Positions 1,116 through 17,964 of a stretch of 64,000 nt of DNA are shown piece after piece. Within the stretch, counting starts at the first letter, position 1; every line of letters begins with the position of its first letter. The position numbers were made by a program, and so were the translations under genes. Source of the DNA: Variovorax sp. WS11 (lineage in GTDB: Bacteria > Pseudomonadota > Gammaproteobacteria > Burkholderiales > Burkholderiaceae_C); the NCBI RefSeq assembly GCF_010499245.1, contig NZ_JAAGOW010000005.1, positions 682,001 to 746,000 of the forward strand, written 5' to 3'. A model generated the notes under the pieces. It saw nothing but the letters and a program-made list of their open reading frames with translations. It did no database searches and had not been told where the DNA came from.

Positions 1116-1126
1116 GCACCCTCATC

Positions 1127-1267: not shown

Positions 1268-1328
1268 CGCCGACATTTCGCCGCGAACAACGCGTGGATT
1301 GCAACCGCCGGGCGCGCCGATCTGAGGC

Positions 1329-1805
1329 TCAATCCGAGGAAACGTACTGCACCGCTTCACGCAGCGCGGACCATACCGGGGGCGCAGGCTTCACCCCCGC
1401 CGCGACGTTCGCGGGTTCGAAGCGAGCGCCGCGCAGATGGAGGGCGAGCGCTGCATCCATGGTCTGGACATGCTTTTCATACCAGCCCCTGAGCTGACGC
1501 GCCATCTCTCGCACCTGCAAGAGCTTTCCTTCGCCGGCCTGCAACGCACCTTCGCGCATCACCCCCAGCACCACGCGATGCTGAATCTCGTGGTCCTTTT
1601 GCGACGCATGGCCGGTCGCCCGCATCCAGACATCCTCGCGCGCGAAGTTCTCGGCGGCGCAGAGGACCAGGTCCTGCCAGGCCGAGGGCAATCGGGCGTT
1701 GTCGGCGTTGTCGACACTTGTGAGGAGGCCGATGAACTTCTCGCGAGCCTGGTCCATGAACGGCAGGCCGAGCGACAGTGCTTCCGAACGATTCAAGGCG
1801 GCCAT
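1329..1805 (-). CDS. Haemerythrin-like protein, 158 aa
   Basis: Haemerythrin-type proteins are four-helix bundles carrying a non-haem di-iron site that binds O2 or NO. The order of motifs fits: LPFMDQAREKF near residues 14-24, an FAREDVWMRATG helix near 55-66, HEIQH near 71-75, and WYEKHVQTMD near 107-116, matching the His-x3-His and His-x4-Asp iron ligands of the family. The usual first His of the MDxxH motif reads Arg here (MDQAR), so one ligand seems absent or moved. Start ATG at 1803-1805 has an AAGGAG Shine-Dalgarno eight bases upstream. The gene converges on the nnrS end and diverges from the acetate operon. Could be a degenerate, non-iron bundle. Confidence 0.65.
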   Translation of the reverse strand: MAALNRSEALSLGLPFMDQAREKFIGLLTSVDNADNARLPSAWQDLVLCAAENFAREDVWMRATGHASQKDHEIQHRVVLGVMREGALQAGEGKLLQVREMARQLRGWYEKHVQTMDAALALHLRGARFEPANVAAGVKPAPPVWSALREAVQYVSSD

Positions 1806-2032
1806 GTGATCTCCTTTTGATGATGTGACTCAAGGCTATCGACGCGCGACGAGCGCTGTTTTGACATGGCTCAACGATTGGGCATCCGGTCGATGGTTCA
1901 AGACCAGGACCAGGTTCACCATCACGGCCGACACGCGACGCGACATTCAAAGACCTTGCGCTAGCGCAAAGGCCCGTGCCGCGCTGCAGCTTCCAATGGC
2001 GACGCAATTCCCCCATCCTTGAAGGAGACCCC

Positions 2033-2341
2033 ATGGACGAAGATCTGGTTCGGCGCATCGCCAACCATCCCCAATACCAGGCGCTCAAGGCGAGGCGCAC
2101 GCGTTTCGGCTGGATCCTCACCCTGCTGATGCTGATCGTGTACTACGGCTTCATCATGCTGGTGGCCTTCAACAAGCCCTTCCTCGCGCAACGGCTGGGC
2201 GAAGGCGTGATGACGCTGGGCATCCCGATCGGCTTCGGCGTGATCCTCTTCACCATCGCGATCACGACCTACTACGTGAAGCGTGCCAACGCGGAGTTCG
2301 ACACGCTGTCCGATGCGGTGGCGAAAGGGGCACTCAAGTGA
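2033..2341 (+). CDS. DUF485 small inner-membrane protein (YjcH-like)
   Basis: 102-residue protein with two transmembrane helices (about residues 27-49 and 60-82) and the charged start [18 protein letters not shown] typical of DUF485. These proteins are almost always encoded just before an acetate permease, as yjcH precedes actP in E. coli; their job is unproven. The ATG at 2033 is chosen because AAGGAG lies just upstream (2021-2026); an upstream in-frame ATG at 1976 would add an unconserved tail. The stop codon overlaps the GTG start of actP by four bases, so the two genes are translationally coupled. Confidence 0.88.
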
Positions 2342-4065
2342 ACAACCTGTCCCTCACCGCACGCCGGGCGTTGCTGCTCGCCAGCCTGCTGGCCGCGTCC
2401 GCGGCCGCCTGGGCCGCGGGCGCCGATCTCGGCCAGGTCCAGAAGCAGGCGACCAACTGGACGGCCATCGGCATGTTCGGGATGTTCGTCGTCGGCACGC
2501 TGTTCATCACCAAGTGGGCGGCGGCGAAGACCAAGTCGGCGGCCGACTTCTACACCGCCGGCGGCGGCATCACCGGCTTTCAGAACGGCCTGGCGATCGC
2601 GGGCGACTACATGTCGGCGGCGTCCTTCCTCGGCATCTCGGCGGCCGTGATGGCCGCGGGCTACGACGGCCTGATCTACTCCATCGGCTTCCTGGTCGGC
2701 TGGCCGGTCATCACCTTCCTGATGGCCGAGCGGCTGCGCAACCTGGGCAAGTTCACCTTCGCCGACGTGGCGGCGTTCCGCTTCAAGCAGTCGCCGGTGC
2801 GCATCTTCGCGGCTTCGGGCACGTTGGTCGTGGTGGCGTTCTACCTGATCGCCCAGATGGTGGGCGCGGGCCAGTTGATCAAGCTGCTGTTCGGCCTCGA
2901 GTACTGGATCGCGGTCGTCATCGTCGGCTCGCTGATGATGGTCTACGTGCTCTTCGGCGGCATGACCGCCACCACCTGGGTCCAGATCATCAAGGCCTGC
3001 CTGCTGCTGGGCGGCGCCAGCTTCATGGCGCTGTCGGTGCTGTGGCACTTCGGCTTCAGTCCCGAGGCGATGTTCGCCGGCGCCGTGAAGATCAAGACCG
3101 ACCTGGCGCTGAAGGACGGCAAGACCGCGGAGGCGGCGGCGGCCATCGGCCAGTCGATCATGGGCCCCGGCAACTTCGTCAAGGACCCGATCTCGGCCAT
3201 CTCCTTCGGCATGGCGCTGATGTTCGGCACCGCCGGGCTGCCGCACATCCTGATGCGCTTCTTCACCGTGCCGAGCGCCAAGGAGGCGCGCAAGTCGGTG
3301 ATGTGGGCCACCGGCTGGATCGGCTACTTCTACCTGCTGACCTTCATCATCGGCTTCGGCGCCATCACCTTCGTGCTCACGAACGCGCAATTCGTCGATG
3401 CCAAGGGGGGGCTGATCGGCGGCGGCAACATGGCGGCGATCCATCTGGCCAACGCGGTGGGCGGCAACGTGTTCCTCGGCTTCATCTCGGCGGTGGCCTT
3501 CGCGACCATTCTCGCGGTCGTGGCCGGCCTGACTCTGTCGGGTGCCTCGGCGGTTTCGCACGACCTGTATGCGACCGTCGTCAAGAAGGGCAAGGCCGAC
3601 AGTGCCTCGGAGTTGCGCGTCACGCGCATCACCACGGTCGCGCTCGGCGCGCTGGCAGTGCTGCTCGGCATCGTGTTCGAGAAGCAGAACATCGCGTTCA
3701 TGGTGTCGCTGGCCTTCGCCATCGCGGCGTCGGCGAACTTCCCGGTGTTGTTCATGTCGGTGCTGTGGAAGGGCTGCACGACGCGCGGCGCGGTGATCGG
3801 CGGCTTCCTGGGGCTGATCTCGTCGGTGGCGCTGACGGTGGTCTCGCCGTCCGTGTGGGAGGCGACGCTGGGCTACCCCAAGGGCTCGGCGCTCTTCCCC
3901 TATGCCTCACCCTGCCTGTTCTCGATGACCATCGGCTTCCTCGGCATCTGGATTTTCTCGCTGCTGGACAGCAGCAAGCGCGCCGACGTCGACAAGCAAG
4001 GATTCCTGGCGCAACAGGTGCGCTCGGAGACCGGCATCGGAGCTTCCGGCGCCAGCGGCCACTGA
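2338..4065 (+). CDS. actP: Cation/acetate symporter ActP, 575 aa
   Basis: Sodium:solute symporter family (SSS) permease that takes up acetate and related short carboxylates with a cation. It starts with GTG inside the DUF485 stop (GTGA). The N-terminus carries a hydrophobic segment (residues 8-25), then about thirteen helices. The conserved [19 protein letters not shown] stretch (about residues 81-99) and [14 protein letters not shown] (about 403-416) are typical of ActP. Length is close to the E. coli protein (549 aa) with a short extra N-terminus. It is the transport gene of an operon that continues with a DUF294 protein and a symporter-kinase. Confidence 0.93.
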
Positions 4066-4077
4066 GGCCATCGCACC

Positions 4078-5160
4078 ATGCGGCGCGGCGAGGTCGGGAC
4101 CATGCCGGGGCTGTCTCCCCTCGGCCTCGCAGGCTTCGCCGGCGACGACCCGCAGGCCATCGCGCGGCAGATCGACGAGGCCGCCAGTGTCGCCGACCTG
4201 GCGGCCTCGGCCCTGCGCATCGATGCGATGGTGGCGCTGCTGCACGATGACGGCTTGAAGATCGAGCGCATCGCAAAACTCGTCGGCCATCTCAATGCGC
4301 GTCTCTTCGCGCGGCTGTGGTCGATGGTGGCACCGCAGGAGCTGGTGGCCAACAGCTGCCTGGTCGTCATGGGCAGCGAGGGCCGCGGCGAGCAGATCCT
4401 CAAGACCGACCAGGACAACGCCCTCCTGCTGCGCGACGGCTTCGCATGCGACGGCGTCGAGACCGTCGCCGCGCAGTTCAGTGCCGCACTCGCCGAGCTC
4501 GGCTATCCGCCCTGCCCCGGCCGCATCATGCTCAGCAACCCGCTCTGGCGGCAGCCGCTCGCCGCCTTCAAGGAGATGCTGCGCGACTGGGTCTACGGCG
4601 CGCATCCCGAGGGGCCGATGCACCTGGCCATCTTCCTCGACAGCCTGGCGGTCGCCGGCAACGCCGCACTGCTCGCGCAGGCGCGCGAGCACCTCGACCG
4701 GGTTGTCGATCGCACCGATGTCTTCTTCGCGCGCTTCGCCAGCGCGATCGAGCTGTTCGACCCGCATCCGAACTGGTGGCACCGGCTCATCGCGCGCGAT
4801 GACGACGAGGCGATGGACCTGAAGAAGCTCGGCACGTTCCCGATCGTGCACGGCGTCAGGACCCTGGCGCTGCAGCAGCGTCTGCACGTCACCGGCACGC
4901 AGGAGCGGCTGCGCCTCCTGGCCACGCGGCAGCAGATCGACCCCGGCCTCGCTCGCGACGTCCTCGACGCGCTGCACTACCTGATGTCGCTCAAGCTGAG
5001 CTGCCAGCTGCGCCGGAAGCAGGCCGGGCATGTGCCGGGCAATCTCGTGCGACCGTCCGAGCTCGGCACCCTGGAGCGCGACACGCTGCGCAGCGCGCTG
5101 GGCATCGTGCGGCGCTTTCGCGCCGAGATCCACCAGCGCTTCCGGCTGGACGCCTTGTAG
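4078..5160 (+). CDS. DUF294 putative nucleotidyltransferase-like protein, 360 aa
   Basis: Contains the DUF294 nucleotidyltransferase-fold core: MGSEGRGEQ at about residues 97-105 and KTDQDNALL at about 108-116, equal to the G-S and D-x-D signatures of the polymerase-beta-like fold, followed by the DUF294 C-terminal all-helical domain. Related proteins in Proteobacteria carry N-terminal cNMP-binding and CBS domains and are thought to resemble GlnD-type signal transferases. Here those sensory domains are missing; only about 80 residues precede the catalytic core. Lies 12 bases after actP in the same operon. Start could also be the ATG at 4102. The substrate is unknown. Confidence 0.75.
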   Translation: MRRGEVGTMPGLSPLGLAGFAGDDPQAIARQIDEAASVADLAASALRIDAMVALLHDDGLKIERIAKLVGHLNARLFARLWSMVAPQELVANSCLVVMGSEGRGEQILKTDQDNALLLRDGFACDGVETVAAQFSAALAELGYPPCPGRIMLSNPLWRQPLAAFKEMLRDWVYGAHPEGPMHLAIFLDSLAVAGNAALLAQAREHLDRVVDRTDVFFARFASAIELFDPHPNWWHRLIARDDDEAMDLKKLGTFPIVHGVRTLALQQRLHVTGTQERLRLLATRQQIDPGLARDVLDALHYLMSLKLSCQLRRKQAGHVPGNLVRPSELGTLERDTLRSALGIVRRFRAEIHQRFRLDAL

Positions 5161-5175
5161 TTCGCGGGAGCACGC

Positions 5176-5376
5176 ATGTCCGAAGGCTCCAAGCCCCAAC
5201 GCCTGCTCGGCCTCTTCGCGCTCGGCTGGCTGCTGCTCAACGTGCCGCTGCTTACGCTCTGGGACCACCCGGTCATGGTCTGGGGGCTTCCGCTGATGCC
5301 ACTGGCGCTCTTCGGCGGCTGGGCCGTGCTGATCGCGCTCGCCGCATGGGTCGCCGAGTGCTCCGGCGACATGTGA
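5176..5376 (+). CDS. Small two-helix membrane protein, 66 aa
   Basis: A 66-residue protein with two hydrophobic helices (about residues 10-28 and 33-57) connected by a short WDHPVMVWG loop, with a GGGAGC-like ribosome site upstream. Its stop ends one base before the ATG of the symporter-kinase. Small proteins of this shape often sit next to solute:sodium symporter genes and may be accessory subunits; that role is inferred from position only. Confidence 0.7.
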   Translation: MSEGSKPQRLLGLFALGWLLLNVPLLTLWDHPVMVWGLPLMPLALFGGWAVLIALAAWVAECSGDM

Positions 5377-5377
5377 C

Positions 5378-8134
5378 ATGCCTGCCGCACCCGTCGTCAT
5401 CGTCGCAGCCTTCGGCTACCTCGCGCTGCTGTTCGCGATCGCGCATGTCGGCGACCGCAGGGCGCGCGAGGGGCGCTCGCTGATCGGCAGCCCCTGGGTC
5501 TACACCCTGTCGATGGGCGTCTACTGTACGGCCTGGACCTATTTCGGCAGCATCGGCCGGGCCGCCTCGGCCGGGCTGTGGTTCCTGCCGATCTACCTCG
5601 GCCCGACGCTCGCGATGCTGATGGCCTGGACGGTGCTGCGCAAGATGGTCCGTATTGCGCGCAGCCAGCGCATCACTTCCATCGCCGACTTCATCGCCAG
5701 CCGGCATGGCAAGAGCCCGCTGCTGGCCATGCTGGTCACGCTGATCGCGGTGGTGGGCATCCTGCCCTACGTGGCCTTGCAGCTCAAGGCGATCGCGAGC
5801 GCCTATGCGCTGCTCGCCGATGCACCCGCGCAACCGCTAGCCTGGTGGCGCGACAGCACGCTGTACATCGCACTGGTGCTGGCCGGCTTCACGGTGGCCT
5901 TCGGAGCACGCCATCTCGACACCACCGAGCGCCACGAGGGCATGGTCGCGGCGATCGCGTTCGAATCGCTGGTCAAGCTGCTGGCCTTCTTGGCGGTCGG
6001 TGCCTTCGTCACCTGGGGCCTGTTCGACGGGCCCGCCGACCTGTTCGGCCGCGCCGCGGCCCGGCCCGAGCTCGCGCCGCTGCTGGGTCTCGGAAGCGGC
6101 GCCAGCGGCGGCTTCGCGGGCGGCCAATGGTTCGCGCTGACGCTGCTCGCGATGCTCTCAGTGCTCTTCCTGCCGCGGCAGTTCCAGATGATGGTGGTGG
6201 AGAACGTCGACGAGCGCCACCTGCGGCGCGCCACCTGGGCGTTCCCCCTGTACCTGCTGCTGATCAACCTGTTCGTGCTGCCGATCGCGCTGGGCGGCCT
6301 TCTGCACTTCCAGGGCGGGCGCGAGAACGCCGAGACCTTCGTGCTCTCGCTGCCGCTGGCAGCCGGCCAGCCGGGGCTGGCGCTCGCCGCATTCATCGGC
6401 GGGCTCTCCGCGGCCACCGGGATGGTGATCGTCGAGGCCATCGCGGTCTCCACCATGGTCTGCAACGATCTCGTGATGCCGCTGCTGCTGCGGGCCGGCC
6501 TGCTCGGCGCGCGCGACGTGAGCGGCGTGCTGCTGGGCGTGCGCCGGACGGTGATCATGGCGCTCCTGCTGCTGGGCTACCTCTACTACCGCATCGCCGG
6601 CGAAGACTATGCGCTGGTGAGCATCGGCCTGATCAGCTTTGCCGCCGTCGCGCAGTTCGCGCCGCCGATGCTGGCCGGCATGTACTGGAAAGGCGGCACG
6701 CGCCACGGCGCGCTGGCCGGCCTGGGCGCTGGCTTCTTGCTGTGGGCCTGGACGCTGATGCTGCCGTCGATCGCCAAGTCGGGCTGGATCCCCGCCCGCT
6801 TCATTGCCGAGGGGCCGTTCGGCATCGCCTGGCTGCGGCCGGAGCAGTTGCTGGGCCTCGCGGGCCTGGACAACCTGACGCACGCGCTGTTCTGGAGCCT
6901 GCTGGTCAACAGCATGCTCTACTTCGGCGTCTCGCTCCTGGGCCGCCCGTCCGCGCGCGAAGCGAGCCAGGCGCTGATCTTTGTCGACGTCTTCGAACGC
7001 AGCGCCGACCCTGCCGCCGACACCGGTCCGGTGTTCTGGCGCGGGACCGCGAGGCTGACCGACCTGCGCCGGCTGGCCGCCCGCTTCCTGGGCGTGGACG
7101 CCACAGAGAAGCTGCTGCACGAGTACGCGCGGCGCAACGGCTTGGCCGGGTCGCAGCAGATCGCCGCCGATGCGAGGCTGGTGCAGTTCGTCGAACGCCA
7201 GCTTGCCGGCGCGATCGGAAGCGCCTCGGCGCGGGCCATGGTCGCCTCGGTAGTCGAGGAAGAGGCCCTGGGGCTGGACGACGTGATGCGGATCCTGGAC
7301 GAGGCCTCGCGCGAAACGGCCGCACTGCGCGCGCACTCGCAGGCGCTGGAAGAGAAATCTCTTTCACTGGAGCAAGCGACCGCCGAGCTGAGCGAGCTCA
7401 ACGAGCAGCTCAAGAGCCTCGACCGGTTGAAGGACGACTTCATGTCCTCGGTGACGCACGAGCTGCGCACGCCGCTGACCTCGATCCGCGCGCTGGCCGA
7501 ACTGATGCTCGACGACCCGGGCATGAACCCCGCACAGCGCCAGCACTTCCTGGGCTTGGTCGTTGCCGAGACCGAACGCCTGACGCGGCTGGTCAACCAG
7601 GTGCTGGACATGGCGAAGATCGAATCGGGCGCTGCCGAATGGCGCAGCACGGAGGTCGACCTGTGCGCACTGGCGCGGCAGGCCGTGCAAACCACGCAGG
7701 AGCTGTTCCGCGAGCGCGGGGCGACTGTGGCGCTGCACCTGCCCGACGCGTTGCCGCCGCTGCAGGCCGATCCCGATCGCGTGATGCAGGTGCTGGTCAA
7801 CCTGCTGTCGAACGCTGTCAAGTTCGTGCCGCCCGGCAGCGGACATGTGGCGCTGCGCCTGCATGCCGACGGCGACCATGTCGTCTGCACCGTGCGCGAC
7901 AACGGCCCCGGCGTGCCGCCCGAACAGCAGGCCCTGGTTTTCGAGAAATTCCGCCAGGGCGGCGATGCCGCGCATCGGCCGCAAGGGACCGGCCTGGGCC
8001 TGCCCATCAGCCGCCGCATCGTCGAGCATTTCGGAGGGAGGATGTGGCTCGAGCCGTCATCGGGCCACGGCGCATGCTTCGGCTTCGAGCTTCCTCTGCG
8101 GCAGGAGACCGCGCAACCGGAGACAAGTCCATGA
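5378..8134 (+). CDS. Solute-symporter/histidine kinase fusion (CbrA/CrbS type), 918 aa
   Basis: Sensor kinase whose N-terminal ~520 residues are a sodium:solute symporter-like membrane domain ([13 protein letters not shown] near residue 45, about thirteen helices), followed by a coiled-coil linker (about 640-690), a HisKA domain with phospho-accepting His at about 694 in [13 protein letters not shown], and a HATPase with N-box NLLSNAVKF (about 807-815), DNGPGVP and GTGLGLPI. All catalytic motifs are intact. CbrA and CrbS kinases of this build control carbon use, including acetyl-CoA synthetase in other Proteobacteria; linkage to actP agrees. The stop overlaps the receiver gene start by four bases (ATGA). 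Confidence 0.9.
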
Positions 8135-8499
8135 ACGCCAAGGTACTGATCGCGGACGACGAACCCAACATCGTCATCTCGCTCGAGTTCCTGATGAAGC
8201 GCGAGGGCTACGATGTGAGCATCGCGCGCGACGGCCAGGAGGCGCTCGACGCCATCCGCAGCCTGCGGCCCGACCTGGTGCTGCTGGACGTGATGATGCC
8301 GCTCAAGTCCGGCATCGAGGTGCTGCAGGCGGTGCGCGCCGACGAGGCGATCGCCGGCACGCGAATCCTCATGCTCACGGCCAAGGGCCGCGAGACCGAT
8401 ATCGCGAAGGGCCTGGCCCTGGGGGCCGATGCCTACGTGACGAAGCCCTTCTCGACCCGTGAGCTGGCCGAGCGCGTGCGCCGGATGCTGTCCCCATGA
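8131..8499 (+). CDS. Stand-alone receiver-domain response regulator, 122 aa
   Basis: A single REC domain: acidic pocket D9-D10, phospho-acceptor D53 in LVLLDVMMP, Thr in MLTAKG, and Lys in VTKPFS near 104. No DNA-binding or enzymatic output domain follows. It is the presumed partner of the upstream symporter-kinase, with which it overlaps by four bases, and it overlaps the downstream exonuclease fusion by four bases (ATGA), so all three are coupled. The CrbS/CrbR and CbrA/CbrB pairs use regulators with DNA-binding domains, so this arrangement differs: the output must act through another protein. Confidence 0.92.
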
Positions 8500-10667
8500 A
8501 GGCCGATGCGGACGAAGTCGCCGCCGCGCTGGCACCCGGTGCGGTGCTGGGGCTGGCTGGCCTTGGACTCGGCGCCCTGCTGGCCGCCACGCTGGAGCCG
8601 GTCGAGCGGGAGGTACTGGGCGCGATGCTGGCGCCGCGCGCCGCTCTGCTGCTTCTGGCCTGGGCGGTGCTGGCCATCGCGCTCGGTGCGCTGGCCCGTC
8701 GCGCCCATGCCATCTGGGCCAGGCAACCGCGCCGGCTGGCCGAGTCCGCCCAGGCCCTGCTGGTTGCCGGCGACACCGCGCGGGAGCAGCCCCTGCCCGC
8801 TGCGACGCCATGCGGCGCAGGCGCCCGGGCGCTGGCCGATGTGGCCGAACGGCTCGCACGGCAGCGTGACGCCCTGCGCGCCGACATCGACGCGAAGGTC
8901 CAGGAGGGCGCACGCGGCATCGAGCACGAGCGCAGCCGGCTCGCGGCGCTGATGTCCGAGCTGACGCAGAGCGTCATCGTGTGCAACCTCGACGGTCGCA
9001 TCCTGCTCTACAACCCGCGCGCGCGGCTGCAGTTCCGGGCACTCTCGCCGACCGGCGGCGCCGAGCTGGTCGGGCTCGGCCGCTCGATCTACGCCGTGTT
9101 CGACCGCCAGCTCATCGCCCACGCGCTGGAGAGCGTTCAGCTGCGCCTGCAGCGCGGCGCGGCCCAGCCGGCGGCCCAGTTCGTCACCAGCTCCCGCGCC
9201 GGCCAGCTGCTGCGCGTGCAGATGGCCCCGGTGCACGACCCGTCCGCCGCACCGGGGAGTGCCGCACAGTTGTCAGGCTTCGTGCTGATGCTGCACAACG
9301 TCACGCGCGAGTTCGAGCGGGACTCCGAGCGCGACCACGTCCTGCACGCGCTCACCGAAGGCAGCCGCTCGTCACTGGGCAGCCTGCAGGCGGCCGTGGA
9401 CATGCTGGAACTGCCCGACCTGGATGCCCCCGTGCGCGAGCGTTTCCTGCGCGTGGTGCGCGACGAGGTGCGCTCGATGACCGCGCACATCGAGTCGCTC
9501 GCGCCGAGCGCCAACGAAAGCCTGAAGACGCGCTGGCCGCTCGAGGAGATGCTCGGCGCCGACTTGGTGCAGGCAGCGCTGCGCCACATCGAGTCGCGCT
9601 CGCAGGTGCGCGCCAGCGCCTCCGACGTCGACCCCGACCTGTGGCTGCGGGTCGACAGCTATGCGCTGCTGCAGGCACTGGCCTCGCTGGCGGCGCGCCT
9701 GGCGGAGGAACTCTCCGTCGCACGCGTGCAGCTGCGCCTGCGGCGCGAGGGCGAGCGCGCCCACCTCGACCTGGTCTGGTATGGCACGCCGATCAGCACC
9801 GAGACGGCGATGGGCTGGGAGTCAAGCCCGATGTCAGCGGGTGACGAAGCCAGCCCACTGTCGGTGCGCGACGTGGTCGATCGCCACGGCGGCGCATTTT
9901 GGTTCCAGCGCGAGCGCGCGCGGCAGGAGGCCTTCTTCCGCTTCCTGCTGCCGCCGGCCCAGCCGCAGGAGCGGTTGGAGGCCTCCACCATGCTGCGCAG
10001 CGACAGCCGGCCCGAGTACTACGACTTTGACCTGTTCCGCACCGGCGTGCAGGCACGCGAGCTCGGCGACCGGCGGCTGGTCGACCTGGCCTACACCGTA
10101 TTCGACACCGAAACCACCGGTCTCGACCCCGCGCAGGGCGACGAGATCCTGCAGATCGGCGCGGCGCGCATCGTCAACGGCAAGGTGCTGCGGCAGGAGT
10201 GCTTCGAGCAACTGGTCGATCCCGGCCGGGGCATCCCCGCGGCGGGCATCCCGATCCACGGCATCACGCCCGCGATGGTCGCCGGCCAGCCCGGCATCGG
10301 GCAGGTCCTGCCCGCTTTCCACGCCTTCGCCAGCGACACCGTGCTGGTGGCCCACAACGCCGCCTTCGACATGCGCTTCCTGCAGATGAAGGAAGCCGCC
10401 ACGGGCGTGCGCTTCGAGCAGCCGGTGCTGGACACGCTGCTGCTGTCGGCGGTGGCCAGCCCGCAGCAGGCTTCGCACGAGCTGGAGGCCATCGCCGGAC
10501 GATTCGGGATTCCGGTGCTCGGCCGCCACACGGCGCTGGGGGATGCGCTCCTGACCGCGGAGGTGTTCCTGCGGCTCATCCCGCTGCTGGCGGCGTTGGG
10601 CATCCACACGCTGGACCAGGCGCGGGAGGCGGCCCAGCGCACCTGGTATGCGCGCCTGAGCTACTGA
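8496..10667 (+). CDS. Membrane PAS/degenerate-kinase protein fused to a DnaQ-type 3'-5' exonuclease, 723 aa
   Basis: Two N-terminal helices (about residues 14-34 and 42-62), a linker, a PAS domain starting near [14 protein letters not shown] (about 160), a region like a histidine-kinase DHp/HATPase pair (about 280-500) lacking the phospho-accepting His ([13 protein letters not shown] in its place) and a recognisable ATP-binding N-box, then a full DEDDh exonuclease: VFDTETTG at about 535, [10 protein letters not shown] near 616, RHTALGDAL near 676. All four metal-binding acids and the His are present. Such proteins are often annotated simply as DNA polymerase III epsilon, but this one is membrane-anchored and lies in an acetate-sensing operon, so a replication role is unlikely. 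Substrate unknown. Confidence 0.85.
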
Positions 10668-10876
10668 GTGGGAAACCGAAGGAGGCGCTCGCCTGCGTGG
10701 ACGCAGAAAAGCCCACCTTGATTCAACGCAAGGAACACCTGAGCATCCGCAACGATCGACGCATGGCGCCGCCCACAATCCCGGGGATTCCATTGACGCA
10801 GGTCATGGCCGCGCGATCAGGCTCTGTCAGACTTGACCGGACGCCGGGGAAAGACCCGGCACACCGAAAGGACCCC

Positions 10877-11803
10877 ATGCTGACCGCGTTCATTACGCAC
10901 CCGGACTGCGCGCGCCACGAAATGGGAGCCGACCACCCCGAGTGCCCCGAGCGGCTGGCCGCGATTCACGATCGGTTGCTGACCACTGGCTTGCTGGACT
11001 ACATGGCGCCCTACGATGCGCCCTTGGCGGGCCTTGCCGAGCTCGGCAGGGCACATGCGCCCTCCTATGTCCAGGATCTGATCGATTGCGCCCCCACGGA
11101 CGGCCTGCTGCGCGTGGACCCAGACACTTGCATGAATCCCTTCACGCTGCAGGCGGCGCGGCGCTCCGCAGGGGCCGTGCTGCTGGCGACCGACCTGGTG
11201 CTGGCCGGGCAAGCCAGCAATTCGTTCTGCAGCGTACGCCCTCCAGGCCATCATGCGGAGCGCGCCACGGCGATGGGCTTTTGCTTCTTCAACAACGTTG
11301 CCGTCGGCATCCGCCACGCCCTGGACACCCATGGACTGGAACGTGTGGCGTTGATCGATTTCGACGTGCACCACGGCAACGGCAGCGAGGACATCTTCCA
11401 GGACGAGCCCCGCGTGCTCATGTGCTCGACGTTCGAGACGGGCATCTACCCCTTCTGCGGCGAACACGGCGGTCGCGCGAACATGATCAATGTCGCCCTC
11501 CCGCCGCGCTCCGGCGGCGACGTCTTCCGTGCGGCAGTGACCCGCCACTGGCTGCCCGCGCTCGATCGATTTGCGCCACAGCTGATCTACATTTCGGCAG
11601 GCTTCGATGGTCATCGAGAGGACGACATGGGCAATCTGGGCCTCGTAGAGAGCGACTACACCTGGGTGACGCGGGAGATCATGCGCGTGGCGCAAGGCCA
11701 CTGCGCCGGCCGCGTCATCTCCTGTCTGGAAGGCGGCTACGCGCTCGGCGCCCTGGGCCGAAGCGTGGCCGCGCACGTCAAGGTTCTCATCGGCGCAGAC
11801 TGA
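10877..11803 (+). CDS. Histone deacetylase family (AcuC-like) protein, 308 aa
   Basis: Zinc-dependent deacetylase fold. Motifs: HPECPERL near residue 21, RPPGHHAE at about 121-128 with the two active-site His, DFDVHHGNG at about 161-169 with the zinc-binding Asp and His, and SAGFDGHRED near 242. Family members deacetylate protein lysines (AcuC acts on acetyl-CoA synthetase in Bacillus) or small acetyl-amines. Start ATG at 10877 has AAAGGA upstream; 209 bases separate it from the preceding gene, so it may have its own promoter. It ends four bases before a GNAT/acyl-CoA-synthetase fusion, which suggests an acetylation-deacetylation pair. Confidence 0.9.
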   Translation: MLTAFITHPDCARHEMGADHPECPERLAAIHDRLLTTGLLDYMAPYDAPLAGLAELGRAHAPSYVQDLIDCAPTDGLLRVDPDTCMNPFTLQAARRSAGAVLLATDLVLAGQASNSFCSVRPPGHHAERATAMGFCFFNNVAVGIRHALDTHGLERVALIDFDVHHGNGSEDIFQDEPRVLMCSTFETGIYPFCGEHGGRANMINVALPPRSGGDVFRAAVTRHWLPALDRFAPQLIYISAGFDGHREDDMGNLGLVESDYTWVTREIMRVAQGHCAGRVISCLEGGYALGALGRSVAAHVKVLIGAD

Positions 11804-11807
11804 ACCC

Positions 11808-14498
11808 ATGGACAAGCACTACCTCACGCCGCTGCTCTCACCCAGCTCCATCGTCGTGCTGGCGGGCGCCGCCGACGCGCCGGACGGGCCGACTGCCCAA
11901 GCCCAGGCATTGCGCAACGCGCTGCAGAGGCAGCGCTTCAACGGATCGCTACAGTTCCTGGACGTGCGCAGCACCGGCACACTGGCCCAGTTGGCACAGA
12001 CGCGCGTGGACCTGGCGATCATCGCGCTGCCGGCGCCCGAGATTGCAGCCGCGCTGGAAGTCACGGGCCGAATCGGGTGTCGCGCCGCCTTGGTGATCTC
12101 GCACGGCCTGAATGCCGAGACTGCATCGCTCCTGAAGAGAACGGCACGCCGGGAGAACATCCACTTGCTGGGCCCCAACTCGCTGGGGTTTCAGCGACCC
12201 GGGCACGCGCTGAATGCAAGCATTGCCGGGCCGCTTGCCAAGGCCGGTCCGCTGGCGCTGATCTCGCAATCAGGCGCGCTGACGGCATCGATGCTGGATT
12301 GGGCGCAGAAGAATGCCGTCGGCTTTTCCAGCGTGGTGTCGCTGGGTCCGCACACGGCAGTGGACATCGCCCAGGTGCTGGACTTTCTGGCGCACGATGC
12401 AGCCACGCACAGCATCATCGTCTACCTCGAGGGCATCACCAACGCGCGGCGATTCATGAGCGCGCTGCGGACCGCATCCAATGCCAAACCGGTCGTGGTG
12501 CTCAAGGCCGGGCGGCGGCCGGCCGGCAACGAGGCCGCCCAGACCCACAGCGCGTCGATCGTGGGCAGCGACGATGTCTTCGACGCCGCGCTGCGCCGCG
12601 CCGGCGCGGTGCGGGTCCGCTCCTTCGTGGAACTGTTTTCGGCCGCCAAGTGCCTGGCGTCGCGCTACCGGCCGGTGGGCAAGCGCCTGGCGATCGTGAC
12701 CAACGGCGGAGGGCCCGGTGTGCTGGCCGCGGACTGGGTCAACGAGATCGGCTTGCAGCTGGGCAAGCTGTCGGCCGCGACGCGCGAGCAACTGCAAGCG
12801 CAGCTGCCCGCGCTCGCCTCGCTGACGGATCTGGTCGATCTCTCCGAAGAGGCAGCGCCATCGCATTACAAGGCAGCCATCGAGGGGGCCAGATCGGACC
12901 CCCAGGTCGACGGGATGCTTGCGATCTTCTCTCCCAAGGCAGGCGCCGACGGATCGGACATCGCGCGCATGCTGTCCACGTTGCCTCGACCCATGAGCAA
13001 GCCGCTGCTGACGTGCTGGATGGGCGATGCGACCGTCGGTGACTCACGTGCGCTCCTGGCCGAAGCAGGCATCCCTAGTTTTCGAACGCCGGAGGCCGCC
13101 GTCGGCGCCTTCGGCAACATCGCGGCCTTCTACCAGAATCAGCAGCTGTTGCAACAGACACCGCCACCGCTGTCGGCGCTGGCCAAGCCCGACGTGGAGG
13201 CCGCCCGGCTCATGATCGAGAGCGTGCTGGCAGAGCGGCGCACCGTGCTCACCGAGATGGAATCGAAGACGCTGCTGTCGTGCTTTCACATCCCGATCAC
13301 CAAGACCATGCTGGCGCGCAGCGCCCATGAGGCCATGATGATCGCGACGCAACTGGGCTTTCCGGTGGCCCTGAAGATCGACTCGCCGGACATCAGCCAC
13401 AAATCGGACGTCGAGGGTGTGGCGCTCAACATCATGAACGGCACCGGCGCGCGCGATACCTATGACGACATGATGGAACGCGTGTCCCGCCTGGCCCCGA
13501 ATGCCCGCATCAACGGCGTCACCGTGCAGAAGATGGCCAAGGCGCGACGCGGGCGGGAGATCTACGTGGGCCTCGTGACGGACGATCCGTTCGGGCCGAT
13601 CATCGTGTTCGGCGCGGGAGGCACCATGATCGAGCTGATGAACGATCGGGCGATGGAGCTGCCGCCGCTCAACCAGTTCCTGGCACGCCAACTGATCGAG
13701 CGCTCCCGCGTGGCCGAAACCCTCGCCGCCTGGCGCGGCGCCGGTGCCGTGGACATGGACGCGCTGGAACGGGTGCTGCTGCGAGTCTCCGAGATGGCGT
13801 GCGAGCTGCCCGGCCTGCGAGAAATGGACATCAACCCCATCATCGTCGACGAATCGGGTGCGGTCGCGGTGGACGCGCGCGTCGTCGTGGGTGGTCAAGC
13901 CGCGGGCGGAAACGGCTATGCCGCCAGCTACCACCATCTTGCGATCCTGCCCTACCCCGCTCGCTACCAGCATGACTGGCCGCTGCGCGGCGGGGGGACC
14001 TATACCGTGCGCCCGGTCCATCCCGACGACGCGCAAATGCTGCAGGGCCTGGTGCAGCACCTCTCGCCCGAAAGCCGCTATTTCCGCTTCGTGTCCCACT
14101 TTCACGAGCTTCCGCCGGCCATGCTGTCGCGCTTCACGCTGATCGACTACGACCGCGAGATGGCATTGGTCGCGGTGGTAAAGGAACGCCACGCCGGCGA
14201 CGACGGCGGCGTGACCGAGACCGAACGGATCGTCGGCGTCTCGCGCTACATCACCAATCCCGATCAGTCCAGCTGCGAGTTCTCGCTCGTGATCGCCGAC
14301 GATTTCAGCGGCAAGGGACTGGGAACGCGCCTCATGGAGAGCATCATCGACGTGGCACGCGACAAGGAGCTCGAAACGATCGAAGGCCTCGTGCTGGCCG
14401 GCAATGCCGGGATGCTCAAGCTCATGCGCAAGCTGGGCTTTGCCGTCAAGCCGTTCCCCGAAGACCCCGACTTCCAGTTGGTGACCTACACGCTCTGA
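11808..14498 (+). CDS. Acyl-CoA synthetase (NDP-forming)-like/GNAT fusion, Pat/PatZ-type acetyltransferase, 896 aa
   Basis: Domain order: CoA-binding Rossmann domain (1-130), succinyl-CoA-ligase-like domain (about 150-460), ATP-grasp domain (about 490-700), then GNAT acetyltransferase (about 725-890). This is the architecture of the PatZ/Pat lysine acetyltransferases, which acetylate and switch off acyl-CoA synthetases; the synthetase-like part is usually an inactive sensor. The phospho-His region reads GPNSLGF where active NDP-forming synthetases have GPNxxG, and the expected catalytic His near SQSGAL is not evident. It follows the deacetylase gene by four bases, so the pair is likely one transcript. 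Confidence 0.88.
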   Translation: MDKHYLTPLLSPSSIVVLAGAADAPDGPTAQAQALRNALQRQRFNGSLQFLDVRSTGTLAQLAQTRVDLAIIALPAPEIAAALEVTGRIGCRAALVISHGLNAETASLLKRTARRENIHLLGPNSLGFQRPGHALNASIAGPLAKAGPLALISQSGALTASMLDWAQKNAVGFSSVVSLGPHTAVDIAQVLDFLAHDAATHSIIVYLEGITNARRFMSALRTASNAKPVVVLKAGRRPAGNEAAQTHSASIVGSDDVFDAALRRAGAVRVRSFVELFSAAKCLASRYRPVGKRLAIVTNGGGPGVLAADWVNEIGLQLGKLSAATREQLQAQLPALASLTDLVDLSEEAAPSHYKAAIEGARSDPQVDGMLAIFSPKAGADGSDIARMLSTLPRPMSKPLLTCWMGDATVGDSRALLAEAGIPSFRTPEAAVGAFGNIAAFYQNQQLLQQTPPPLSALAKPDVEAARLMIESVLAERRTVLTEMESKTLLSCFHIPITKTMLARSAHEAMMIATQLGFPVALKIDSPDISHKSDVEGVALNIMNGTGARDTYDDMMERVSRLAPNARINGVTVQKMAKARRGREIYVGLVTDDPFGPIIVFGAGGTMIELMNDRAMELPPLNQFLARQLIERSRVAETLAAWRGAGAVDMDALERVLLRVSEMACELPGLREMDINPIIVDESGAVAVDARVVVGGQAAGGNGYAASYHHLAILPYPARYQHDWPLRGGGTYTVRPVHPDDAQMLQGLVQHLSPESRYFRFVSHFHELPPAMLSRFTLIDYDREMALVAVVKERHAGDDGGVTETERIVGVSRYITNPDQSSCEFSLVIADDFSGKGLGTRLMESIIDVARDKELETIEGLVLAGNAGMLKLMRKLGFAVKPFPEDPDFQLVTYTL

Positions 14499-14849
14499 CC
14501 GGCGGCAACTGCTGCGCCGGGTGCAAGCAGATGCTGGATCTGCACCAGCGCCGCAGGGTCCTCCAGGATCGAGAGATCACCCCGGACGCGACACTCGCCG
14601 ACGCACGCAATGAACCGAGGTCGTAGTGCCGAGGGTCGTCCAGGCCGGCGCGTGGACCATGCAGAAGGCCCGCCGGCGGTGCAGGACGCGTCACCATCCG
14701 GACGTTCGCAGGATGACACGGAGCGTTCACAGACTGTTCCCTTTCGGTGCCCGGCGTTGACCGAGCTGCAAGGCGCAGCGCCTAGATTGAGGTGGCGCCT
14801 TAGCAGTGCCCCGATTCCACCAGGCGCAGGGGCGAACGAGGAGACTGTC
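14499..14849. other. Intergenic region, no credible gene
   Basis: 351 bases between the acetyltransferase and the small protein at 14850. Begins with an imperfect inverted repeat (CCGGCG ... CGCCGG, 14500-14519) that lacks a T-run. The frames crossing it have no recognisable motif. Likely holds the promoter of the next gene, but no clear -35/-10 pair was found. Confidence 0.5.
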
Positions 14850-15059
14850 ATGAACGCATCGCACGCATCCGCTGGTTGGGAACTCCGCTTCGATGCTCTG
14901 TTCGCCGGTCGCCCCGGATTCGTCTTCCCTTGCAGCGCGGAGGGTCATGTGAACATGGACGCCTTGAGCGAGCGGGCACTCAACAACTACCTGTATGCCC
15001 GCGCGATGATGGGGCGGGAGGTCGCGTGGCCCAGCGTGCACCCGAGCCGGCTGCACTGA
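14850..15059 (+). CDS. Small conserved hypothetical protein, 69 aa
   Basis: Starts MNASHASAGWELRFDALF with GAGGAG seven bases before the ATG, and continues with FPCSAEGHVNMDALSERALNNYLYARAMMGRE. I recognise this as a small soluble protein common in Burkholderiales, often as stand-alone copies, with no known function. The conserved Cys-rich FPC and DALSERA stretches are kept. No membrane helix or signal peptide. It lies at the border to gene debris and the replication region. Confidence 0.75.
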   Translation: MNASHASAGWELRFDALFAGRPGFVFPCSAEGHVNMDALSERALNNYLYARAMMGREVAWPSVHPSRLH

Positions 15060-15094
15060 GTGTCCGCCCGCCGCACGCGCCTGAACCAGACATC

Positions 15095-15303
15095 AATGGC
15101 GATCAGCACCAGCACCGTCATGTGGGCGAGAACCTCCCGCGCGACACCGCCCAGCACCATCTCGCGCAGGCGCGAGTGCCCGTATCCTCCCATCACGCGT
15201 TCTCCGCCACATCCTTGAACTCCTCGTCGTAAGGCACCACGAGCACCGGTCGGCCGGCGTCGAGCATCACCTGGGCCAGGAGTCCGCGTGCCGGCACATC
15301 GGA
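15095..15303 (-). pseudogene. Universal stress protein remnant
   Basis: Two pieces of a UspA-type protein lie in different reading frames on the minus strand. The first (15303 to about 15196) reads LLAQVMLDAGRPVLVVPYDEEF, the mid-part of a tandem USP protein, and ends in TGA. The second begins in the overlapping frame at about 15199 and reads MGGYGHSRLREMVLGGVAREVL, the nucleotide-binding end of USP, running on past the usual end. The roughly 70-80 residues normally between these pieces are missing, so an internal deletion broke the gene. Confidence 0.7.
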
Positions 15304-15518
15304 TTCGCTCCCACGGCCCATCAACGCGGGCGGGTTCCTGGCTGTCCGGCAGTAGACCTGTCACATGCCTGCTCGGCGCTATCGGCTTCAAGGAGGTCGG
15401 CTACGTGCCTCTGGCGCTGGTACTGCTGGCGTTTGCGATCGTCCCGGCATTCGACAACCTGGCAACTCTCGCACGCCGCCGGGGGCGCTCGGGCAGGCAA
15501 TCGCGAAGGAACGAGTAA
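15288..15518 (+). pseudogene. Possible fragment of a membrane protein gene
   Basis: A 76-codon frame whose last half reads IGFKEVGYVPLALVLLAFAIVPAF, one good hydrophobic helix, followed by a basic tail and TAA. It overlaps the universal stress protein debris on the other strand and has no ribosome site, so it looks like the 3' end of a lost gene. The parent family was not recognised. Confidence 0.3.
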
Positions 15519-15809
15519 GGCCGTCCTGTCGGCCTTTGCTCGATCCGGCGCAAGTGCCCCGGCGTTTTCTTCAGTGAGCCTTTCACCTCAATCGACGCAC
15601 CGAGTCAGGCGGCGGTCATCCGGCGATTCCTCGGAGCTGTCCCCGGGCGACTGGGTGGCGGCGATCGGCGCGTCCTGCGGGGTTTTCATGGAAGGTCACC
15701 ACGGGCGACCGACTCGAGGTGTTTCACGGTCTTTTGCTGCATCAGATTTTCTCTTTTCGCGACAATCACTTAGCACGCTTTCCTTATCAGCACGGCGGCC
15801 AGTGTTTCA

Positions 15810-15828
15810 CGTAAATCAACGATTTACG
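15810..15828. promoter_or_regulatory. Palindrome CGTAAATC-AAC-GATTTACG, candidate operator or parS
   Basis: A perfect 8-base inverted repeat with a 3-base spacer. It lies nine bases upstream of the -35 element proposed for the 15910 gene. Both size and perfection would fit a protein-dimer site: an operator for that gene product, or a partition-protein site given parA/parB nearby. The role is inferred. Confidence 0.5.
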
Positions 15829-15836
15829 GCTCACTG

Positions 15837-15866
15837 TTGCGGTCGCGTCGAGGTTGCGCGGATAAT
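15837..15866 (+). promoter_or_regulatory. Sigma-70-type promoter for the 15910 gene
   Basis: A -35 like TTGCGG (15837-15842) and a -10 GATAAT (15861-15866) are separated by 18 bases. The predicted start is near 15873, inside the second palindrome, so a bound protein would block transcription. Confidence 0.4.
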
Positions 15867-15872
15867 TGAGTT

Positions 15873-15887
15873 ATTTAGTAACTAAAT
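15873..15887. promoter_or_regulatory. Palindrome ATTTAG-TAA-CTAAAT at the predicted transcription start
   Basis: Perfect 6-base arms with a 3-base spacer, located 22 bases before the start codon at 15910 and over the predicted transcription start. Best read as an autoregulatory operator; not the same sequence as the 15810 palindrome. Confidence 0.45.
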
Positions 15888-15909
15888 TCTCAAAAGGCCA
15901 GGCAGGTTC

Positions 15910-16716
15910 ATGGATGAGTATTCAAGCGACAGCCCGAGGGAGCCTCTCTCGATCCCGCCCCCACCTCTTTCGGGCAGCCACGGGTGGCCACCCATTTGCA
16001 CGCTCGCCGAGCTGGCGCGCATCCTGACCCTGATTCATGGCGTCAAGGCGCCGACGGAGTCCTCCCTCAAGAAATGGAGCGCCGCGGGTGCCTTCAGATC
16101 CTGCGTGGCTTCCGAGGAGGAAGTATTGGCCGCCGAAGCGCCCTCCCCTTCCGCCGCGCATACCCTGCTACAGCGCCCGCGGCGGGCGGGCCGACCAGGG
16201 CTGACGCTTCGCACGGCCATGGCCATTGGCCGCGTCTACGAGCTGTGGCCTTTTCTCGGTGAATCCGATCCTCACGCCGTCGTGGAGCTGGTGGTGGCAC
16301 GGACCGCAGACCACCTCCGCGTTGCGCTCGCTCAGGCCACGCCGCCGATGGCTCAGGCTTCCCCGGAGCCGTCGGAGGAAGCCGCCGAGCGGCCGACCCC
16401 GAGTGCCCTTGCGTTGCACGAAATCGAGCGCCAGCTCGGCTTGCTGACCCAGGAGATGGCGGCCATGAAAAAAGAAGTCGCCCACTTCTCCGCGCTGCGC
16501 AACAACCTCATCACGCGTCTCGACGATGCCGTCGCGCGCGCCAAGGAGGCGTTGACCGGCGGGGTGCCTGGCGGCGGTAGCCTGGATCCGCTGGTAGAGG
16601 CACGGCGTGACCGGGACATGGGCATCATGAAGTCCACGCTGAGCGAGATCCTCACGGCGCTGCAGCGCATCGAAGCGGGAAACGGCACCAGAGGATCAAT
16701 GCCAGGGACGTCATGA
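15910..16716 (+). CDS. Unknown plasmid-maintenance-linked protein with coiled coil, 268 aa
   Basis: Not recognised by name. Residues about 25-75 (CTLAELARILTLIHGVKAPTESSLKKW) could form a winged-helix or helix-turn-helix fold. Residues about 175-215 are a predicted coiled coil rich in Glu, Met and Leu (EIERQLGLLTQEMAAMKKEV). The C-terminal part is charged and probably flexible. This build, DNA-binding head plus coiled coil, recalls KfrA-type plasmid proteins, though no sequence match is claimed. It converges on parB, with two large palindromes between them, and its own promoter region carries two other palindromes. A replicon-organisation role is inferred from place only. Confidence 0.6.
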   Translation: MDEYSSDSPREPLSIPPPPLSGSHGWPPICTLAELARILTLIHGVKAPTESSLKKWSAAGAFRSCVASEEEVLAAEAPSPSAAHTLLQRPRRAGRPGLTLRTAMAIGRVYELWPFLGESDPHAVVELVVARTADHLRVALAQATPPMAQASPEPSEEAAERPTPSALALHEIERQLGLLTQEMAAMKKEVAHFSALRNNLITRLDDAVARAKEALTGGVPGGGSLDPLVEARRDRDMGIMKSTLSEILTALQRIEAGNGTRGSMPGTS

Positions 16717-16908: not shown

Positions 16909-17964
16909 CTAAAGTCCGTCGACGAATCCTTGAACGGCCTTGAGCAACGTCAGCTGCTGGTCGTCGGACAGCTTGATGGACAGCTTCAGGGTCGGGCGTC
17001 CCAGCACATCGAACTTCAGCGCGCCCACTTTTTGATTGGCAAGCTTCAAGACATGGCTGGCCTGTGGGACAGGTGCCACCGCCTCCGCGGCTGTGCCTGG
17101 CGCGGATACGAGGCGGGCAAATACGCTCTTGGCAGAATGAACGCCCTTTTCCGACGCCAGCGCCTGCGCACGCCCGACCAGTCCGGCCTCATCGTCCTGA
17201 AAGGCCTTTCCCAGCTCCGTGGCCCAGGCCAGCTGGATCGTCTGGGGCGCGGGGAACGCTGCGATCACCGCATCGGGCAGGCGCGCCAGCGTCAATGCCT
17301 TGCCGAGATTGCTGATATCCACTCCCAGGGCGGCCGCCATTTGGCGGTTCGACGGATAGACGCCCTTCTCGAGCGCGCGCAAATACGTCATGCCTTGCTC
17401 CCACGGCGACGGGTCAGCGCGGCCCCGGTTCTCTCTATCCATCTCCTCCACGAGCGCGCGGTCGTCCAGGTTCTCGACGACCGCCCAGACCGGGATGCCC
17501 AGCTGGCGGCAGGCTTCGTAGCGCCGGTGACCGAAGACCAGCTCGTACTTCGGGCCCTCCCCCGGTTTGGCGATCGCGCGCACCTTGATCGGCTGCGAAT
17601 TGCGGCCCGCCTCCTGGATCTCGCGCTTGAAGTCCTCGAAGGCCTTGCCCACGAATGCCGACTCGTGCCGGTTCGCGAACTCGCTGCGAGCGATCTCCGC
17701 GGTGTCGATCGATCGCGCCGGCAGGGCCCCATCCCAGCTGCGGAGCTCGGCGCTGACTTCGCTCAAGCGCCCTTCCAGCTCGCCGACCTGCGCGGCCCGG
17801 ATGCGCAACTCTTCGTTCTCGCGCAGCAGCTCGGAACGCTGGTCGTTGGCAAACGCCATCATCGCGCCCGGCGCTGTCTTCGGCTTTGCCGCATCGGGCA
17901 CCGGCTGCGCCGCCGGCATGATGGATGCGAAGTCGATCTTGGAGGCTTTGTCTTTCAAACCCAT
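16909..17964 (-). CDS. parB: ParB/Spo0J family partition protein, 351 aa
   Basis: Centromere-binding partition protein. An N-terminal ~85 residues with coiled-coil character (ENEELRIRAAQVGELEGRL) precedes the ParB N-terminal nuclease-like/CTPase domain with VFGHRRYEACRQLG (about residues 142-155, the box II arginine motif), then a helix-turn-helix (NRQMAAALGVDISNLGKAL, about 205-223), and a C-terminal dimerisation region. ParB proteins bind parS and load as CTP-dependent clamps. The ATG lies one base after the parA stop, so the two are cotranscribed. Two large palindromes lie just downstream and could be its parS. Confidence 0.9.
   Translation of the reverse strand: MGLKDKASKIDFASIMPAAQPVPDAAKPKTAPGAMMAFANDQRSELLRENEELRIRAAQVGELEGRLSEVSAELRSWDGALPARSIDTAEIARSEFANRHESAFVGKAFEDFKREIQEAGRNSQPIKVRAIAKPGEGPKYELVFGHRRYEACRQLGIPVWAVVENLDDRALVEEMDRENRGRADPSPWEQGMTYLRALEKGVYPSNRQMAAALGVDISNLGKALTLARLPDAVIAAFPAPQTIQLAWATELGKAFQDDEAGLVGRAQALASEKGVHSAKSVFARLVSAPGTAAEAVAPVPQASHVLKLANQKVGALKFDVLGRPTLKLSIKLSDDQQLTLLKAVQGFVDGL

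Follow-up and report, generated by a model that had tools for sequence, protein, structure and literature searches.

In a 64,000-nucleotide stretch of the Variovorax sp. WS11 genome (contig NZ_JAAGOW010000005.1, positions 682,001 to 746,000; hereafter the window), an operon with an ActP-family symporter, a DUF294 nucleotidyltransferase, a sensor kinase and a single-domain receiver also encodes a membrane-anchored fusion protein in which a kinase core lacking its phospho-histidine is joined to an intact DEDDh exonuclease. Across the family of this fusion, the kinase hairpin and an adjacent receiver gene are almost always present or absent together. Our proposal is that the fusion reads the receiver through its pseudokinase and has the nuclease as its effector, and that this effector erases the product of the DUF294 protein; we give the proposal as a whole a probability of about 0.45.

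Kinase core and exonuclease of the fusion protein

A preliminary description of this DNA had read one protein with two membrane helices, a PAS domain, a kinase-like region without the phospho-histidine and an exonuclease, overlapping by four bases with a receiver. This layout was confirmed by the 723-residue open reading frame (ORF), Pfam and an AlphaFold2 model with a mean predicted local distance difference test score (pLDDT) of 87.7. The model begins with two long helices and continues through the PAS domain, a hairpin like that of a dimerization and histidine phosphotransfer (DHp) domain (residues 270-304/311-339), a domain like the catalytic and ATP-binding (CA) domain of kinases (~346-490), a linker of low confidence (494-518) and the exonuclease from 521. 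The overlap is a shared ATGA between the receiver stop (8131-8499) and the fusion start (8496-10667), and ATGA or GTGA is formed by the receiver stop and an in-frame fusion start in 95 of 137 loci. A sequencing or frameshift error was ruled out because the same fusion occurs in 80 retrieved loci (some cut by contig ends), and a chance ORF by the conserved family and by selection. Among six segments of the fusion, the ratio of nonsynonymous to synonymous substitution rates (dN/dS) is lowest in the exonuclease (0.085, 0.11 and 0.263 against relatives L003, L004 and L005).

Pfam RNase_T (PF00929) covers residues 535-691 (3.5e-32; 112.6 bits against a cut-off of 24) and matches all 70 members of our alignment A1 at E<=0.01. 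The five DEDDh residues (D, E, D, H, D), noted as complete in the preliminary description, are kept by every one of the 214 aligned proteins, that of the window included, and mean pairwise identity over 1500 random pairs is 0.67 in the exonuclease, 0.41 in the hairpin and 0.45 in the CA-like domain. Judged by sequence, the exonuclease is very likely active, and no substrate is indicated.

The kinase core was recognized by comparison of profiles and folds. HisKA and HATPase have no Pfam match in the window protein (P0001), and HisKA is found at E<=0.01 in three of the 70 members of A1. Profile-profile comparison with cores of the operon's kinase type aligned them end to end (probability 99.4, E 4.7e-20, 228 columns) and set E288 opposite the phospho-histidine. 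Foldseek matched the kinase part to WalK (3.7e-19), 4i5s and the NifL-NifA complex 9qq6 (5.8e-12), with high root-mean-square deviation across several domains; we rely on these two methods for the kinase part because the VIA rows cover mainly the exonuclease (residues 521-715). Profile alignment, AlphaFold2 model and Foldseek all give a DHp-CA architecture. NifL, too, combines PAS with a kinase-like core and controls the activator NifA by contact; it has no nuclease.

Hairpins fall into three length classes among the 214 aligned proteins: full in 172, shortened in three and absent in 39, one of which (L098) ends at a contig edge. The phospho-histidine site of the 172 full hairpins holds Glu in 134, Asp in 23 and another residue in 15; none has His, which rules out an active kinase. 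A histidine at 284, four residues before the site, was rejected as an acceptor since only 79 of 172 carry it. In the window protein, the one whose alignment was read by eye for these positions, the N-box asparagine and the G2 glycines are gone. R291, the H-box arginine, is kept in 135 of 136 receiver-bearing full-hairpin proteins. We compared DHp and CA profiles with 30 of this genome's 47 HisKA sites: the DHp-only profile put the operon kinase at the top of these 30 kinase loci (42.7 bits versus 26.9 for the next), whereas the CA-only profile was unspecific and ranked it fourth (10.8 bits). The simplest reading of the sequences is that a receiver-recognition surface has been kept and catalysis lost.

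The fusion is not an isolated oddity but one of a widespread family, of which we compared 214 distinct relatives. A scan of one genome per species (84,980 species) yielded 524 stretches with an encoded relative (E<=1e-3). We retrieved the best 80, with Variovorax, Ideonella, Rhodoferax, Hydrogenophaga, Polaromonas, Methyloversatilis, Caldimonas, Thiothrix and others among their genera; the other 444 may include looser relatives. Of 300 genomes from the order, 22 match the fusion at E<=1e-60, as do 48 of 200 from the family; outside these, the exonuclease part has matches at E<=1e-25 in 98 of 398 genomes from the phylum and in 21 of 274 from the class, the weak end of these matches resembling ordinary DnaQ. 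When 230 distinct exonuclease proteins were sorted by profile, 175 had PAS and pseudokinase, 34 PAS only, three pseudokinase only and 12 neither, and six were fused to DUF294; the alignment of 214 took in all 212 that have PAS, pseudokinase or both, together with L244 and L282 from the 12 that have neither.

The hairpin and the adjacent receiver gene

The receiver was described as having no output domain, and this held: within its 122 residues Response_reg is the sole Pfam family above cut-off, and its relatives reach 0-21 residues past its end. Catalytic residues are retained in 135 of 137 receivers. The operon kinase (5378-8134) has no Response_reg match at E<=0.1. Its membrane part aligned with a set of ActP sequences (profile comparison probability 98.1, 459 columns), and the Pfam SSF model has no match in the kinase at E<=0.1. 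The label acetate-sensing for this operon was inferred from ActP and the SLC5-like kinase.

We counted a receiver gene as adjacent if its ORF lay on the same strand and ended 300-2600 bases upstream of the exonuclease domain. By this measure it accompanies 155 of 166 full-hairpin proteins versus one of 41 in which the hairpin is missing or shortened. In the first count 28 of the 214 rows had too little upstream sequence; wider flanks covered 22 of these, of which 19 have a receiver gene, L343 has none, L325 was counted as lacking one and in L344 the region was not visible, so that seven rows (L344 and six not retrieved) are left out. The 41 comprise 36 proteins of f95 (our code for a family) plus L102, L103, L204, L113 and L116, the last two reread with more flank as L321 and L322. 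L325 has a weakly scoring hairpin, an adjoining 1649-residue ORF that holds the only receiver domain hit and no DUF294 or ActP hit in its stretch; it is perhaps a re-wired copy.

The association also appears among close relatives. Within f95 the receiver stands beside 21 of 21 full-hairpin proteins versus none of 36 others, and among the 33 f95 stretches without the pseudokinase a receiver hit occurs elsewhere in one (L181). Three f95 proteins (L184, L252, L258) have kept the CA-like domain with a hairpin shortened to 53-61 residues, against 81-91 residues in the full-hairpin proteins shown beside them. In L321 and L322, of a genus coded g211, the hairpin is gone (17 residues) and a CA-like domain of 140 residues is kept; DUF294 and ActP are still present, and no receiver hit occurs in the 12.5 and 8.6 kb retrieved, whereas congeners with the hairpin have the receiver gene in four of five cases (L191, L195, L326 and L331; not L325). 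A receiver hit is absent throughout the stretches of L184, L252, L258, L204, L321, L322, L343, L347 and L348. Five groups lack the full hairpin, and in four of them the receiver is missing as well (f95 without pseudokinase together with L204; f95 with the shortened hairpin; g211; L103; not L102), although the five may not all be independent.

Several observations weigh against a functional link. Eleven of the 166 full-hairpin proteins stand without a receiver gene beside them (nine from the first count, plus L343 and L325); in the genomes of those nine, a match to P0002 (E<=1e-25) was found elsewhere in four and not in the other five. L102/L346 retains receiver and kinase though its fusion has no pseudokinase. 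At 63 of the 86 full-hairpin loci the SLC5-type kinase is found no more than 4.5 kb away, and since 20 of the 23 misses have the receiver, the receiver's kinase is often elsewhere. On the tree the hairpin trait needs a minimum of four changes and offers 2-4 independent pairs (sign test median p 0.5), with three pairs on a second tree, so the association could rest on a handful of accidents; with so few events it is suggestive and not proof. The second tree took every fourth receiver-bearing full-hairpin row outside f95 and left out L098, L113 and L116. The first left out the stand-alone and DUF294-fused rows, the doubtful L325, four rows whose genes were already included (L327, L346, L347, L348) and two that were cut short (L339, L344). 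Given the exceptions, the distant kinases and the roughly four changes on the tree, we hold gating of the nuclease by the receiver through the hairpin to be somewhat more probable than its absence, on the comparative sequence evidence.

The pseudokinase and receiver could instead be mere neighbours, with PAS alone, binding a small ligand, controlling the nuclease and the receiver working elsewhere. Such an arrangement would account for the 11 full-hairpin proteins just mentioned and for the 33 f95 proteins with membrane helices, PAS and exonuclease, whose existence without pseudokinase or adjacent receiver means that neither is required in every member. It does not explain why the receiver has also gone from four of the five groups, not necessarily independent, that lack the full hairpin, nor why the hairpin specifically resembles the partner kinase, and we regard it as unlikely.

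Under the receiver-gated reading, the SLC5-type kinase upstream would sense acetate or a similar organic acid, or the transport of such a compound, and would phosphorylate the stand-alone receiver. The phosphorylated receiver, having no DNA-binding part, would dock on the DHp-like hairpin of the membrane-anchored fusion, the step for which there is comparative support. Docking, together with the state of the PAS domain, may then alter the pseudokinase dimer and switch the exonuclease on or off at the membrane. A probable receiver-to-fusion link, as the preliminary description had supposed, is thus backed by the hairpin profile and by gene adjacency.

The closest precedent is DivL-DivK of Caulobacter, in which a PAS-bearing pseudokinase without the histidine reads a phosphorylated single-domain receiver, the signal passing from receiver to pseudokinase (PMC5361649, in part). 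The fusion has the same elements, a His-less kinase core, a PAS domain and a neighbouring gene for a single-domain receiver, which it is predicted to bind. It differs in that DivL acts on the kinase CckA and carries Tyr, whereas family members mostly have Glu or Asp at the site and bear a nuclease. The authors of the DivL study ask, in the part available to us, whether other two-component systems use this reversed flow (PMC5361649). In the family described here the pseudokinase is joined to its effector, and 155 of the members examined are receiver-linked, so that the question could be put to the test in a nuclease assay on two purified proteins. Among the matches listed from open-licence PubMed Central, which does not include most subscription papers, none described a PAS/kinase-exonuclease fusion with a receiver, nor was the combination of a receiver-reading pseudokinase with a nuclease found in the open-licence literature searched.

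If the receiver does gate the nuclease, nucleases become outputs of two-component systems. The preliminary description had called this a new type of response. The intact nuclease and a probable receiver link are supported here; pp_0353 of Pseudomonas putida KT2440, a stand-alone exonuclease from a regulon of this kind, already has a published growth phenotype (PMC9927547, in part).

The DUF294 partner and the substrate of the exonuclease

The genomic partner of the exonuclease is DUF294. Where the flanks are long enough, it is encoded no more than 6 kb away from 67 of 82 pseudokinase proteins and from all 26 PAS-exonuclease proteins. In the order it is present in 20 of the 22 genomes with a fusion match versus 135 of 278 without (Fisher p 8e-5, descent ignored). 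In six proteins the two are fused, with the exonuclease N-terminal (L189, L206, L207, L210, L211, L212); the two that were checked with Pfam have RNase_T, CBS, DUF294 and DUF294_C. A branch of the second tree, with support 92, places the exonucleases of the DUF294 fusions, and the stand-alone, DUF294-neighboured L150, L205 and L213, on the family's side and splits off five other exonucleases, including this genome's second DnaQ-like protein; with many long branches and a midpoint root, the placement is tentative. At L189 and L210 an SLC5-type kinase of ~1200 residues lies on the other strand, ~1 kb from the exonuclease-DUF294 fusion. Seven f95 loci (L180, L181, L184, L185, L187, L194, L246) encode a protein of ~175 residues, hydrophobic in its N-terminal part, that separates DUF294 from the receiver/exonuclease.

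The model of the window's DUF294 protein (pLDDT 92.0) resembles both halves of Escherichia coli GlnE, the glutamine synthetase adenylyltransferase (Z 27.5 and 25.2), and DrrA (Z 26.1); the best match, 1v4a, extends over 312 residues (Z 27.5, 3.4 Å, 14% identity), and the next rows are parts of DrrA/SidM (14.2, 12.5) and MntA-HepT entries (~10). A PDB sequence search gave a single match, at E 0.71. Residues G99, S100, R103, E105, D111 and D113 are invariant in 42 aligned DUF294 sequences and form GS-x2-R-x-E ... DxD, which we take to be the motif of GlnE-kind transferases. By predicted fold and motif, 4078-5160 thus encodes a putative GlnE-kind adenylyltransferase. GlnE itself removes AMP through its own second transferase-like domain, and a separate DEDDh eraser for a GlnE-like writer would be new.

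This fold, and the fusion and neighbourhood with the exonuclease, led us to suggest that DUF294 acts as writer and the nuclease as eraser. DEDDh enzymes release the 3'-terminal nucleotide as a 5'-phosphate, and the same type of bond holds AMP on a protein hydroxyl. The substrate would then most likely be the DUF294 product, a nucleotide attached to a protein or to the 3' end of an RNA and taken off by the nuclease, and the two enzymes would together control how actively acetate or pyruvate is taken up or assimilated. That nuclease and DUF294 act in one pathway we consider likely; that the nuclease removes what DUF294 adds is a tentative step, with odds short of even. The most specific form of the proposal, in which the output of the two-component system is removal of nucleotides from proteins, written by DUF294 and erased by the receiver-switched exonuclease, with the docking site a fossil histidine kinase related to the operon's sensor kinase, is improbable. 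It would mean that a nucleic-acid exonuclease fold had been turned into a protein de-nucleotidylase under two-component control. If the nuclease does reverse DUF294, this would explain the gene pair beside acetate transporters in several proteobacterial families, and the role of pp_0353 in Pseudomonas.

Points against the proposal are several here as well. Fifteen of the 82 pseudokinase fusions have no DUF294 within 6 kb. No DEDDh enzyme is known to us to remove nucleotides from proteins, and the closest nucleases by fold have DNA or RNA ends as substrates. The mutant of pp_0354, which encodes the CBS-domain protein, lacks the pyruvate defect of the pp_0353 mutant, and the difference does not favour one shared pathway (PMC9927547, in part).

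The nearest solved nucleases, in both sequence and fold, are PolC, DinG, epsilon and ExoX, with the PolC exonuclease first (sequence 6.3e-32; fold Z 25.5 over 191 residues, 1.8 Å). This match would suit a fusion that acts on DNA ends, in proofreading-like or repair fashion, its place in the operon being incidental. The N-terminal membrane helices and the linkage with ActP, DUF294 and the receiver across several families speak against such a role, as does the unchanged growth of the pp_0353 mutant with added DNA (PMC9927547, in part), and we judge it very unlikely.

An exonuclease that trims or degrades RNA, whether selected mRNAs or RNA ends, according to carbon source, with receiver control as proposed or absent, is unlikely too, though with an appreciable chance of being correct. 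DEDDh enzymes commonly act on RNA or DNA 3' ends, and RNase T and 3'hExo are among the fold matches (Z ~18); replication- or DinG-type nucleases match better (Z 22-25.5), and action on RNA leaves the fusion with a GlnE-like transferase unexplained. In the part of the paper available to us, mRNA decay was speculated for pp_0353 (PMC9927547).

The preliminary description had named linear dinucleotides, pGpG and nanoRNA as candidate substrates. None of these, nor any other particular substrate, is supported so far. Nothing points to linear dinucleotides, and no search for links to cyclic di-GMP (c-di-GMP) enzymes was made; a link to c-di-GMP or pGpG was rejected as unproven. Hydrolysis of a nucleotide second messenger, pGpG or an oligonucleotide made by DUF294, is the most remote of the alternatives: Orn is a DEDDh precedent for very short substrates, and a GGDEF protein lies in the window 12 kb off (22957-25752), but no conserved link to cyclic-nucleotide enzymes was seen, though none was looked for, and DUF294 matches protein adenylyltransferases first.

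Related regulons and the surrounding operon

The MxtR/ErdR targets pp_0353/pp_0354 of P. putida and PA3232-PA3235 of P. aeruginosa pair an exonuclease of the RNase_T family with a CBS-domain gene in one operon under an SSS/STAC-type kinase system; in P. aeruginosa PAO1, actP and yjcH lie next to the exonuclease (PMC9927547, in part). Compared by description, pp_0353 differs from the fusion in that the available part of that paper describes no PAS, pseudokinase or dedicated receiver for it, and ErdR binds promoters, unlike the window's receiver, which has no output domain. PA3232-PA3235 are upregulated on propionate (PMC9765439, in part). Deletion of pp_0353 delayed growth on 20 mM pyruvate and left growth on 20 mM acetate or succinate normal (PMC9927547, in part).

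The operon kinase resembles the SLC5/STAC kinases CrbS/MxtR, CbrA and RpuS in its SLC5/ActP-like membrane part, HisKA and HATPase_c. CrbS is called a hybrid kinase (PMC5715377, in part), whereas here the kinase has no receiver-domain hit and the receiver is a separate gene. The same source, in the part available, raises the possibility that the CBS-nucleotidyltransferase protein of this regulon acts by nucleotidylation (PMC5715377); an exonuclease undoing such nucleotidylation was not found in the literature searched, and the words exonuclease and nuclease are absent from the main text of PMC9100948, on SLC5/STAC kinases.

Table 1. Coordinates of the operon genes and of the segments of the fusion protein in the window.
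Feature	Position	Strand	Basis or details
Small protein in yjcH position	2033..2341	+	Sequence; presumed yjcH, named by position
ActP-family cation/acetate symporter	2338..4065	+	NF006903, 937.7 bits, cut-off 750
DUF294/DUF294_C nucleotidyltransferase, 360 aa	4078..5160	+	Pfam, predicted fold; no CBS hit in window copy
Sensor histidine kinase, 918 aa	5378..8134	+	SLC5/ActP-like membrane part + HisKA + HATPase_c
Single-domain receiver, 122 aa	8131..8499	+	D9, D10, D53, T83, K105
Fusion protein, TM-TM-PAS-pseudoDHp-pseudoCA-DEDDh exonuclease (TM, transmembrane helix), 723 aa	8496..10667	+	Single frame
Two long N-terminal helices (model 2-32, 35-90)	8499..8765	+	Hydrophobic stretches, presumed membrane helices; sequence, AlphaFold2 secondary structure
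PAS domain, residues 156-250	8961..9245	+	Pfam PAS_4 0.0011 (below cut-off), PAS families in relatives, secondary structure
DHp-like hairpin, residues 270-339	9303..9512	+	E288 (codon 9357-9359) at phospho-His site; R291 near-invariant
CA-like (ATPase-fold) domain	9531..9965	+	N-box Asn gone, G-boxes degraded; profile alignment, model
Linker motif	10005..10037	+	[12 protein letters not shown]510 and F511 invariant in 70 aligned members
DEDDh exonuclease core, residues 530-700	10083..10595	+	D537, E539, D625, H678, D683
Histone-deacetylase-family protein, downstream of fusion	10877..11803	+	Hist_deacetyl 1.5e-82 in longer ORF 10199-11803; start read from sequence
CoA-ligase-like protein with GNAT acetyltransferase domain (Pat-like)	11808..14498	+	

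The plus-strand order is small protein, ActP, DUF294, kinase, receiver, fusion, histone-deacetylase-family protein and CoA-ligase/GNAT protein. An Rfam scan of window positions 1-16000 gave zero matches at the gathering score, and a promoter and terminator scan did no better than chance. The last two genes (10877-14498) may form a lysine acetylation pair within this operon; besides the window copy, a Pat-like gene stands beside the fusion only in L006 among the loci compared, many of which have short flanks.

Farther along the window, ParB-like and ParA-like genes lie side by side on the minus strand (16909-19162), as in a partition locus, and the GGDEF protein is a Cache-PAS-GGDEF diguanylate cyclase, also on the minus strand. 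An 804-residue frame (59940-62354) carries acyl-CoA dehydrogenase domains behind a CoA-transferase III domain.

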